DNA of 35,474 nt from a virus, in the IMG/VR virus record IMGVR_UViG_3300047300_000471, positions 1 to 35,474 of that record; one strand, given 5' to 3'. The position numbers and the translations under genes are program-made. The notes under the pieces were generated by a model. The model did no database searches. It was given only the letters and a program-made list of their open reading frames with translations, and was not told the DNA's origin. Positions 1-35,474 of the stretch are shown piece after piece (positions within the stretch are counted from its first letter, which is position 1; every line of letters starts with the position of its first letter).

Positions 1-246
1 GCGGACAACGTAACCAAAAACAACGCCCTGTTGTCTCGCTTGAATCAGCGCGGCAACGTCAAGACCATCTCTGGCGGTAACGTAATTTTTGAAGAACTCT
101 CCTTCGCTGAAAACGCGAACGGTGGCTTCTACTCTGGTTACGACTTGCTGCCTGTGGCTGCTCAAGACGTTATCAGCGCCGCTGAATATCAGATCAAGCA
201 GTACGCAGTTCCAGTCGTTATGAGCGGCTTGGAAATGTTGCAAAAC
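1..246. repeat. Terminal repeat with 35229-35474 (circular overlap)
   Basis: Bases 1-246 align without gaps to 35229-35474. I find five differences, at 123, 186, 189, 201 and 243, all at third codon positions and all synonymous; the first 122 bases are identical. The simplest reading is that the contig is circular, about 35,228 bp, and that the two ends come from slightly different strains in the sample. A second, diverged capsid gene in tandem is the alternative. Confidence 0.9.
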
Positions 247-20839: not shown

Positions 20840-21277
20840 TTATTCCTGTTCTGCCGGTACATCGACGTACTCGGTCTTTGGTGTGTAAGGGAAAGTGACA
20901 GGGACAAAACTGTCGCGGTTGGTGTAGCAGCTGCCGCTTGGTTCGCGGAACACGCGACCATTTATGTCATAGGCCTGACCGTCAAAACGATCGGCCTGTT
21001 TAAAAACGCGGCTGCAACGCTTGTTTTGAAGCACACCCTCCGCGGCTTCATTCCATTCATCGTCTTCGCCTGTCAGCGGAGTCAATGGCTCAAAAGCCAA
21101 AACTTTTTTCAAAATGGAAAGCGCATAGTTGGCGCTGAACCCGCTGTGCCCTTCCTCGGCAAAAGCCTTGACCATATGCAAAATGTGATCTCGCATAGCG
21201 CGGTTCATCTCATCATCGCTGTCAGCAGTCATTCCGATGCGATTAAGTTCGCTTTGCGCGTATTCAAGAAGTGCCAT
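20840..21277 (-). CDS. Conserved phage protein of unknown function, 145 aa
   Basis: I recognise the pattern but not a function: an N-terminal helical part (residues 1-60, with 'AEEGHSGFSANYALSIL'), then 'PLTPLTGEDDEWNE', 'QNKRCSRVFK', 'DGQAYDINGRVFREP' and 'FPYTPKTEYVDVP'. This conserved protein is widespread in early regions of phages of Gram-negative hosts. It starts 3 bases after the previous stop and ends 3 bases before the Sak4-like gene. Confidence 0.8.
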   Translation of the reverse strand: MALLEYAQSELNRIGMTADSDDEMNRAMRDHILHMVKAFAEEGHSGFSANYALSILKKVLAFEPLTPLTGEDDEWNEAAEGVLQNKRCSRVFKQADRFDGQAYDINGRVFREPSGSCYTNRDSFVPVTFPYTPKTEYVDVPAEQE

Positions 21278-31641: not shown

Positions 31642-32007
31642 ATGGAAAAAGCAAACGAATTTGCGTCCCTGTTGGTCAAGTCCCGGTCACTGGGCCACGT
31701 GGCGCACTGGGCAACTGACAGCTACTCCAAGCACATGGCGCTGGGCGCGTTTTACGAGGGCTTGAGCGAGCTCACCGACGCCTTTGTTGAGCAGTACCAA
31801 GGCTACTACAACAAGCGCATGAAGGTCGAGATTTTGACCTGTGACTTGGACGATGACGTGGCGAGCGAGCTTGAGGAGCACATGGAATGGATCGAGCGCT
31901 ACCGCTACCAGGTCTGCGACAAGGACGAGACGTCACTGCAGAACGCGATCGATGAAATTGTCGGTCTGTACCAAACCACGATCTACAAACTTCGCATGCT
32001 TAAGTGA
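31642..32007 (+). CDS. DUF5856-like, Dps/ferritin-like small protein, 121 aa
   Basis: All-helical protein: 'LGHVAHWATDSYSKHMALGA' then FYEGLSELTDAFVEQYQGYY and a last helix 'ISLQNAIDEIVG'-type segment (about 98-117). The pattern of paired His, Glu and Tyr residues over four helices is that of DUF5856 proteins in phages, distantly like Dps and ferritins. Metal binding is possible (His19, His22, His31, Glu residues) but not shown. GAGGTGAGAG precedes the ATG. Its place between portal and scaffold suggests a packaging or head role or simply a morphogenesis moron. Confidence 0.65.
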   Translation: MEKANEFASLLVKSRSLGHVAHWATDSYSKHMALGAFYEGLSELTDAFVEQYQGYYNKRMKVEILTCDLDDDVASELEEHMEWIERYRYQVCDKDETSLQNAIDEIVGLYQTTIYKLRMLK

Positions 32008-33856: not shown

Positions 33857-34978
33857 ATGGAACCCACGACATCACTGCGCGACGCAATCGAGTCCGCGAT
33901 CGAAGAACCCGAACAAAAGGCTGCGCCGGCTCCTGAGCCGGTTGCATCTGCAGAACCATCTGTAGAACCTGCCGAACCTTCTGCCGAACCCGCTTCCGCC
34001 GCTCCCGAAGCTGCCGCCGCCGCGCAAGACCTCAATGCTCTTGCCGAAGACAAGGTAGACGACGGCAAGCCCCGCGACGAGCAAGGAAAGTTCAAGCCGC
34101 GGGATGATGGTATGCAAGCTGGGCCAAAATCTGGACCTAAGCCACAGGGCGAGCGTGCCCCGGCATCTTGGCGCCCCGAGGCCCGCGAGCACTGGGCGCA
34201 GTTGCCCGAGGGCGTGCGCGCTGAAGTGGCTCGCCGTGAATCCGAAGTGGCGCGCACCCTGCAAGAAACTGCCGAGGCACGCAAGACCGCCGAGGCCGTC
34301 ATGCGCACGATCGAGCCATACCAGGCATTCATCAAGGCCGAAAACAGCAACCCCTTGCAGGCGATCGACAACCTGATGTCAACGGCGGCGCGCCTGCGCA
34401 CCGGTACGGCGCCCGAGCTCGCCCAGCTGGTGGCCGGCATCGTCAATCAGTTTGGCACGGGCCGCTTTGGCAATGGCTTTATTGAGCTGCTGGACGGCGC
34501 CTTGGCTGGCCAGACACCCAAGCAAGACCCGCAGCAACTGGCCATGGAGCAGGTGCTGAACCAGCGCCTGGCGCCCGTGCAACAGATGCTGACCCAGTTC
34601 CAGCAGGCGCAACTGCAGCAACAGCAGCAGGTTGCCCAAGCCGCGCAGACTGAGGTGTCAACCTTCTTGGACCGCGCTGAGTTTGGCGAGGACGTGCGCG
34701 AAGACATGGCCGACTTGCTCGAGGCAGCGCAGCGCAAGGGTCAGAACCTGAGTCTGGCCGATGCCTACAAGAAGGCTTGCCTGATGAACGACAACGTGCG
34801 GGCCGTGCTGACGCAGCGCGTACGGGCCAAAGGAGCTCAGAACACCACCCAAGCCGCGCAGAAAGCCAGGTCGGCAGCGGTGCAGGTTTCGGGGTCCGCG
34901 CCCATGGGTGGCATCAAACACGACCCCACCGACGTGCGCACGGCCATCGAGGCCGCGATTGCGATGTCATCAAGATGA
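33857..34978 (+). CDS. Scaffold-like protein, 373 aa
   Basis: Residues 1-65 are acidic and Pro/Ala/Glu-rich with short repeats (EPVASAEPSVEPAEPSAEP), then a charged linker with 'DEQGKFKPRDDG', and helical segments from about 110 to 160 and 220-260 (the latter a Gln run: QQAQLQQQQQ). The basic C-terminus has QAARSAAVQVSG-like sequence. The layout, low complexity and position immediately before the capsid gene fit an internal scaffolding protein that guides capsid assembly and is then lost. No protease gene is seen, so it may leave intact. Confidence 0.75.
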   Translation: MEPTTSLRDAIESAIEEPEQKAAPAPEPVASAEPSVEPAEPSAEPASAAPEAAAAAQDLNALAEDKVDDGKPRDEQGKFKPRDDGMQAGPKSGPKPQGERAPASWRPEAREHWAQLPEGVRAEVARRESEVARTLQETAEARKTAEAVMRTIEPYQAFIKAENSNPLQAIDNLMSTAARLRTGTAPELAQLVAGIVNQFGTGRFGNGFIELLDGALAGQTPKQDPQQLAMEQVLNQRLAPVQQMLTQFQQAQLQQQQQVAQAAQTEVSTFLDRAEFGEDVREDMADLLEAAQRKGQNLSLADAYKKACLMNDNVRAVLTQRVRAKGAQNTTQAAQKARSAAVQVSGSAPMGGIKHDPTDVRTAIEAAIAMSSR

Positions 34979-34987
34979 TTGCATAAT
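34959..34987 (+). promoter_or_regulatory. Promoter for the capsid gene
   Basis: -35 TTGCGA (34959-34964), 17-base spacer, -10 CATAAT (34982-34987). It lies at the end of the scaffold gene. Transcription would start near 34994, giving a leader of about 170 bases before the capsid ATG at 35166. Confidence 0.55.
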
Positions 34988-35165
34988 CGCACCACAAGGC
35001 AGGTAACTGCCTTTGGTGTGCCACAGCACCCCAGCCACCGCAAGCTCATAGGAGACACCGCAAGGGTGTCCCACCTACGACAAAGTCGGACTGTGATCGG
35101 TTCGCGTAGGCGCATCTGAACCAAGCAGGCGCAAGCCTTTTTTGAACTCAGATGAGGATTTAATC
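34988..35165 (+). ncRNA. Structured RNA leader of the capsid gene
   Basis: No gene fits in this 178-bp stretch. Hairpin 1: CACCA-C-AAGGCAG (34990-35002) with CTGCCTTTGGTG (35007-35018), GTAA loop. Hairpin 2: GACACC (35054-35059) with GGTGTC (35065-35070), extended by TAGG (35049-35052) with CCTA (35074-35077). Alternative: CCTACG (35074-35079) with CGTAGG (35105-35110). Hairpin 3: CATCTGA (35113-35119) with TCAGATG (35148-35154), enclosing AGGC-GCAA-GCCT and a T6 run. The last arm touches the ribosome site GAGG (35154-35157). Probably a regulatory leader. Confidence 0.6.
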
Positions 35166-35474
35166 ATGAGCTTTCCAAATGTATCGGACATCGTCGCGAC
35201 GACGATTCAGTCCCGCACTCGTCAGATTGCGGACAACGTAACCAAAAACAACGCCCTGTTGTCTCGCTTGAATCAGCGCGGCAACGTCAAGACCATCTCT
35301 GGCGGTAACGTAATTTTTGAAGAACTCTCCTTCGCTGAAAACGCGAACGGCGGCTTCTACTCTGGTTACGACTTGCTGCCTGTGGCTGCTCAAGACGTTA
35401 TCAGCGCCGCTGAGTACCAGATCAAGCAATACGCAGTTCCAGTCGTTATGAGCGGCTTGGAAATGTTGCAGAAC
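35166..35474 (+). CDS. Major capsid protein, 5' part (continues at base 1)
   Basis: ATG 35166 with GAGG 8 bases upstream; the first 21 residues (MSFPNVSDIVATTIQSRTRQ plus I) are unique to this end, after which the sequence repeats bases 1-246. The window ends inside the gene. Over the shared 82 codons the protein is identical to the copy at the start; only synonymous bases differ. With the 1-909 part it gives a 323-residue capsid protein. The ribosome site lies partly in a stem of the structured leader, which could set the timing or level of capsid synthesis. Confidence 0.9.
   Translation, partial: MSFPNVSDIVATTIQSRTRQIADNVTKNNALLSRLNQRGNVKTISGGNVIFEELSFAENANGGFYSGYDLLPVAAQDVISAAEYQIKQYAVPVVMSGLEMLQN

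Follow-up and report, generated by a model that had tools for sequence, protein, structure and literature searches.

A conserved, structured RNA leader that probably acts as a translational switch precedes the major capsid protein gene in a group of phages

The gene for the major capsid protein (MCP) of the phage studied here is preceded by a structured RNA leader of ~175 nt, which is conserved among related phages and, judging from its sequence, probably serves as a cis-acting translational switch of MCP synthesis. Several of its pairings have coevolved, namely those in P1, P3, X and P6 as well as a long-range contact between an upstream "anti-start" segment and the Shine-Dalgarno (SD) region of the MCP gene. 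From these patterns, we infer that the leader may interconvert between two folds, A and B, that turn capsid synthesis off and on, possibly under the control of a ligand. The stretch of DNA analyzed, hereafter called the window, comprises 35,474 bases and was confirmed to be a virus record; genes for terminase, portal and MCP (phrog_9953) were recognized in it. The open reading frame of the MCP gene extends from 35166 to 35474 and continues at 1-909; it begins with AUGAGCUU (35166-35173) and has an SD-like GAGGA (35154-35158) ahead of its start. On its other side, the leader borders a gene (33857-34978) that had no match in family searches and, from its position and composition, presumably encodes a scaffold protein. 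The promoter-like site, the leader elements and the MCP gene all lie on the plus strand.

The relatives of the window phage are metagenome contigs. A search of IMG/VR with the MCP as the query matched nearly 600 loci, 80 of which were taken, and extra queries enlarged this set. A pattern describing the leader core, which has a single match in the window and was absent from 100 shuffles, was found in 119 stretches, including 84 distinct ones in non-genome loci. An MCP homolog lies directly downstream in 81 of these 84 distinct viral matches, while the remaining three look like chance. When 119 distinct leaders were sorted, 71 fell into class 1 (the window type), six were associated with an HNH gene and 42 were of other kinds; the class 1 leader is located directly upstream of an MCP homolog in ~70 distinct IMG/VR relatives. 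Judging by their genes for an integrase and a CI-like repressor, the phages carrying it look temperate. Of 86 matches inspected in a scan of genomes, nearly all were due to chance, and the sole real match recognized outside viral contigs was in a phage-like contig binned with Brevundimonas. Covariance models from Rfam 15 had no match at the gathering score in the window or in 17 loci covering all leader classes (best sub-threshold score: narK, 12.1 bits, E 6.8), and no capsid-gene switch or leader of this kind was found among the Rfam families or in a narrow search of the open-licence literature.

The predicted structure of the leader is unusually stable. RNA comprising positions 34988-35175 folds with -75 kcal/mol, compared to a mean of -53.6 kcal/mol (sd 4.1) for 200 dinucleotide shuffles, none of which was as low (z -5.3); folding from the likely transcript start at 34994 gave a z value of -4.7. 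Coevolution was assessed with a strand-swap test, in which the energy of the duplex formed by the two strands of one leader is compared with the energy obtained when strands are exchanged between leaders. This alignment-free approach was used because the anti-start:SD and P6 columns are out of register in the MAFFT alignment (A1). Since it is a permutation test without a tree model, the values obtained for a reduced set of 13 representatives that are less than 80% alike are the fairer figures. Controls stayed near zero or positive (z between -0.3 and +2; reduced set -0.3 and +1.1), whereas P1, P3, X, P6 and the anti-start:SD pairing showed coevolution of both strands that was kept in the reduced set. 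A preliminary description of the window had proposed a regulatory leader in front of the capsid gene that is able to cover its start, to be checked by conservation and covariation across related phages. The leader is indeed conserved, with compensatory changes in several stems, and P1, P3, X and P6 coevolve according to the swap tests.

The center of the leader is formed by hairpin P3 (GACACC/GCAAG/GGUGUC, 35054-35070; swap z -8, reduced set -4.7), which is enclosed by helix X (35049-35077), consisting of UAGG 35049-35052 and CCUA 35074-35077. The two helices are joined via an internal loop made up of A35053 and CCA 35071-35073. Helix X reached a z value of about -6 (reduced set -4.5 to -4.6), and its column pairs in alignment A1 include U-A (20) exchanged for C-G (10) and A-U (38) exchanged for G-C (4). 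In three relatives (L297, L298 and L501), X is altered and the A/CCA loop kept. For X and P3 taken together with Pc, a helix of fold B described below, 26 cells of alignment A1 are changed on both sides, compared to 8.1 in shuffles (0/500). The preliminary description had correctly placed CCTACG (35074-35079) and its potential partners TAGG (35049-35052) and CGTAGG (35105-35110). The backward pairing, corresponding to X, is borne out by the swap test (reduced set -4.5), but the forward pairing, Y, is weakly supported (z -3.3, reduced set -2.8), with five both-side changes on its own in alignment A1 compared to 2.2 in shuffles (29/500). In the predicted minimum, Y forms part of hairpin Y-P5 (35074-35110), in which CCUACG 35074-35079 pairs with CGUAGG 35105-35110 and CGGACUG 35087-35093 with CGGUUCG 35098-35104. 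Further downstream, P6 (35113-35154; CAUCUGA 35113-35119 : UCAGAUG 35148-35154) coevolves with a z value of -7.4 (reduced set -3.7) and is exchanged for CCACA:UGUGG in half of the relatives; it contains the small hairpin P7 (AGGC/GCAA/GCCU, 35127-35138). P2 (GUGC:GCAC), P5 and the pairing GUGUGCC:GGCGCAU gave no coevolution signal in the swap tests, because one of their sides is invariant. The hairpins with GUAA, GCAAG and GCAA loops described earlier are all present in the window, but their loop sequences are not conserved in relatives.

Transcription of the leader probably starts at ~34994, about 7 nt past the -10 box of a promoter-like site (34959-34987). This site comprises a -35 element (TTGCGA, 34959-34964), a 17-nt spacer and a -10 element (CATAAT, 34982-34987), the latter directly following the upstream gene's stop codon and absent from the preliminary description. 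It matches at 9 of 12 positions, and no other promoter-like site was found (one site compared to 0.2 expected in shuffles). Among 80 relatives with sufficient sequence, only one lacks a -10-like hexamer just behind the upstream stop codon. The best three columns of this hexamer are A (78/80), A (76/80) and T (73/80), although these counts are somewhat inflated because the hexamers were picked by best match. A TG-type extension is common in the relatives, and their -35 elements are weak. Immediately behind the -10 box, the predicted hairpin P1 (CGCACCACAAGGCAG/GUAA/CUGCCUUUGGUGUG, 34988-35020) shows pronounced strand-swap coevolution (z -15, n=59; reduced set z -6.1). With a start at ~34994, its outer 5' strand would be lost, such that the RNA keeps only the inner part of P1 and the full hairpin would be present just in RNA reading through from upstream. 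The outer strand (34988-34993) is in the position of the promoter discriminator, yet complementary to GGUGUG in nearly all relatives. A DNA operator at P1 was rejected, as the spacing of the arms is too variable for a fixed-spacing site. In the leader of Stenotrophomonas phage BUCT555 (L082), an operator-like inverted repeat (ACACGGCC..GGCCGTGT) fills the spacer of a promoter-like site (TTGACA-17-TAGAAT, 2310-2338).

The principal new observation is the anti-start segment AAGCUCAU (35042-35049), another element missing from the preliminary description, which lies between CAGCCACCG and AGGAG. In the predicted minimum structure of the window, it forms a perfect 8-bp duplex with AUGAGCUU at the start codon (35166-35173); alternatively, its CUCAU can contact AUGAG in the SD region (35152-35156). 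The SD contact of the type that coevolves is thus short in the window, and the strong contact is the one with the start codon. Among the relatives, this segment coevolves with the SD region, with a z value of -10.2 (0/20000 permutations) that falls to -4.5 in the reduced set (also 0/20000), individual leaders having their own matching pairs, such as AAAUGCUCC:GGAGCAUUU (L011), UAACUCC:GGAGUUA (L008), AUGACUC:GAGUCAU (L165), GCUCUC:GAGAGU (L050) and GAUGAGC:GUUCAUC (L080). Across the 71 class 1 leaders, the SD is unpaired with a mean probability of 0.11 (median 0.03), compared to 0.45 for the other 24 gene starts considered, all from the window. For the window MCP gene, the SD has a value of 0.38 and the AUG a mean of just 0.058, compared to 0.44 for the 24 other starts, because the anti-start segment pairs with AUGAGCUU. 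Single leaders showed no general excess of SD complementarity over shuffled upstream sequence (mean z -0.8), a test that proved uninformative. In having a conserved contact between upstream sequence and the SD or start, the leader resembles SD-sequestering cis-regulatory RNAs. This contact also shifts the role that had been assigned to the last stem: P6 ends beside the ribosome site rather than covering it, and the predicted cover is the distant segment 35042-35049, paired to the SD/start region.

These pairings suggest a mechanism with two incompatible folds that use common nucleotides. In fold A, the predicted minimum, pairing of AAGCUCAU with the start region would block ribosome entry, with P3, Y-P5 and P6-P7 filling the loop closed in this manner. 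In fold B, CAGCCACCG (35032-35040) would pair with CGGACUG (35087-35093) to form helix Pc, AGG with CCU (X), and GUGUGCC (35016-35022) with GGCGCAU (35109-35115), thereby breaking P6. Within Pc, the pairings CAG:CUG and CCG:CGG flank a CCA/A internal loop, so that fold B would display two A/CCA internal loops and place the anti-start segment in the loop that separates Pc from X, with the start free. A factor binding to these loops, or folding during transcription, would then select fold B and turn capsid synthesis on. CGGACUG is common to Pc and P5 and, like CAGCCACCG, invariant in class 1; class 3 has GAG..CUC and class 2 AUG..CAU in place of the latter. GUGUGCC is nearly invariant, and its pairing with GGCGCAU was drawn with Pc enforced. 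Neither Pc nor GUGUGCC:GGCGCAU varies within class 1, and hence neither shows covariation. When Pc was enforced, each leader printed adopted fold B, with GUGUGCC:GGCGCAU (or a variant), ACC:GGU, Pc, X and P3, and P6 opened in the window. Fold B lies above fold A by a median of 10 kcal/mol (range 4 to 15) in nearest-neighbor energies, calculated with models that ignore tertiary contacts, proteins and pseudoknots.

A short pseudoknot, Y', in which ACGA (after CCU) pairs with the segment before GGC, is compatible with both X and Pc. All three could coexist, so that the two folds may not exclude each other and the switch is a likely reading rather than a proven one. The leader might instead adopt this one static structure, in which P1 would shield the 5' end of the RNA, and set the stability of the mRNA along with a constant rate of translation that is low or late. 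We consider this unlikely: on its own, Y' is weak, with a z value of -1.2 in the reduced set, and full Y does better, and the coevolution of the anti-start:SD pairing demands pairing of the start, which is hard to fit with a closed Pc.

If the leader is a switch, the A/CCA loops, which the preliminary description did not list, are candidates for its receptor. Class 1 leaders contain the 3x1 loop CCA/A twice, in Pc (CAG-CCA-CCG / CGG-A-CUG) and in X-P3 (AGG-A-G / C-CCA-CCU). Class 3 leaders (L338, L348, L370, L375 and L376) have tandem hairpins with GAG-CCA-CC..GG-A-CUC, and class 2 leaders have AUG-CCA-UC..GA-A-CAU together with hairpins such as CGG-A-GAGC..GCUC-CCA-CCG (L071). CCA/A is the commonest of the 3x1 loop types found in 43 representative MCP leaders, with 31 occurrences compared to a shuffle mean of 13.5 (maximum 20; maximum for any 3x1 loop type 24), in a count that includes the class 1 leaders, where the loop was first noticed, and has a high shuffle background. 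Single instances in other leaders may be due to chance. Sequestration of the SD recurs in the other classes. In class 2 and HNH-associated leaders, the bases preceding the SD are matched by the strand that follows GAACAUG or GACAUG (z -3.2, 18/20000) and pair with it, as in CAUGACG:CGUCAUG (L061) and CAUGAGG:CCUCAUG (L071). In class 4 (L082, L432, L438, L441, L443, L459 and L507), which includes phage BUCT555, one or two hairpins are built around CUNAC pentaloops, and their 3' strand pairs with the SD (z -4.2, 1/20000, n=9). In all of these cases, complementarity to the SD region resides in the 3' strand of the conserved hairpin, such that hairpin and SD pairing exclude each other, and it is from the class 2 and class 4 leaders that we infer the direction of regulation. 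In class 3, GGACUCC pairs with GGAG(U)CC, an invariant anti-SD pairing without demonstrated coevolution. It is conceivable, if still somewhat doubtful, that these leaders represent an undescribed family of phage translational switches for the MCP gene, with the duplicated A/CCA module as a candidate receptor and at least three architectures that keep the module and the anti-SD logic.

Phages whose MCPs are still 70-80% identical can differ in leader class. This finding bears on the idea of autogenous repression, already raised in the preliminary description as capsid or scaffold feedback, in which excess MCP or scaffold-like protein would bind both A/CCA loops and shut the start region, in the style of ribosomal-protein leaders. 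The occurrence of the leader only before the MCP gene and a duplicated motif that would suit a dimeric or oligomeric protein speak for this idea. However, apart from the change of leader class, hairpin and SD contact share nucleotides in some classes, such that stabilizing the hairpin would free the SD and activate translation, and we consider autogenous repression unlikely. Even less likely is a metabolite- or ion-sensing riboswitch with the Pc-X core and its two A/CCA loops as the aptamer. A long invariant core (CAGCCACCG, CGGACUG, GUGUGCC, CCCACC) amid variable stems does resemble an aptamer, and SD sequestration could serve as its expression platform; yet the leader is confined to one phage gene, its only real match recognized outside viral contigs being that in the Brevundimonas-binned phage-like contig, and the module also occurs in simple hairpins of other classes, more like a protein-binding site. 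Transcription attenuation, as suggested in the preliminary description, or processive antitermination is highly implausible: hairpins do follow closely behind the promoter-like site and P7 is accompanied by a T6 run in the window, but a terminator scan found no conserved terminator, the T run is missing in most relatives, and the conserved pairing aims at the SD instead. Two further candidates were rejected, a leader peptide, whose GUG frame is open in the window but not kept in relatives because the spacer length varies, and, by reasoning, a CsrA site (GGA motifs), which leaves the conserved CCA strand unexplained.

The proposed translational switch shares features with several known systems. 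SD-sequestering translational riboswitches, including tandem-hairpin types such as guanidine-II, use an anti-SD strand common to alternative folds and a repeated small motif. The capsid leaders have a repeated motif and, on the proposed mechanism, would have such a strand too, but they lack an Rfam match and are restricted to one phage gene. Ribosomal-protein leaders mediate autogenous control and are structured RNAs preceding genes whose products are abundant structural proteins, a setting similar to that of the capsid leader, which is, however, associated with neither a ribosomal protein gene nor an rRNA-like site. In phage Mu, the start of mom becomes exposed when Com binds to a hairpin close to a translation inhibition structure of the mRNA (PMC6483171). 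There, too, the start signals of a phage mRNA are hidden in structure and a nearby hairpin binds an activator, but mom is a DNA-modification gene (PMC6483171). The motif described here is a duplicated A/CCA internal loop within a longer core. A Pfam search of 20 small or candidate window proteins revealed no Com-family zinc finger. In the T4 gene 32 leader, gp32 represses its own synthesis by binding a pseudoknot together with an A+U-rich stretch. According to a review, this pseudoknot may be the sole viral case in translational autoregulation, and no riboswitch has been characterized in T4 (PMC3014915). This leader likewise is a structured phage RNA controlling translation of the next gene, but it lacks an anti-SD pairing of the kind seen here and differs in gene and sequence (PMC3014915).

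The capsid protein is the main product of phage infection. A translational lock on its gene would be one means to keep shell synthesis off in the prophage or time it late, and it would provide a ready sensor for whatever signal opens the leader. The common A/CCA module offers a concrete candidate binding site for finding the factor involved.

Several observations concern the neighborhood of the leader. In six loci (L001, at 2330-2941, L023, L046, L049, L053 and L054), the gap between the upstream gene and the MCP gene is filled by an HNH-like gene, called by eye from DHIVPL..NLQLL..ARKGN. The MCP of L001 is 99% identical to that of the window. The coding sequence of its HNH-like gene contains a class-2-like AUGCCAUC..GAACAUGA; class 2 leaders may be relics of such an HNH-like gene. 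Phages Mx8 and Mx9 have 146- and 163-nt gaps before the MCP gene, respectively, in which CUCGCUUC:GAAGCGAG and CUCGUUUC:GAAGCGAG were noticed by eye and whose folding is unremarkable. The two ends of the window (1-246 and 35229-35474) are near-identical within the MCP gene (241/246), so that the contig closes on itself imperfectly, with five mismatches in the 246-base overlap that reflect either mixed strains or an assembly effect. Elsewhere in the window, a protein encoded on the minus strand (20840-21277) matches Pfam Tad3, a type I Thoeris inhibitor (E 9.6e-43), and is a probable counter-defense factor. Within the head gene cluster, a gene on the plus strand (31642-32007) encodes a DUF5856 / phrog_858 protein labeled "starvation-inducible regulator".
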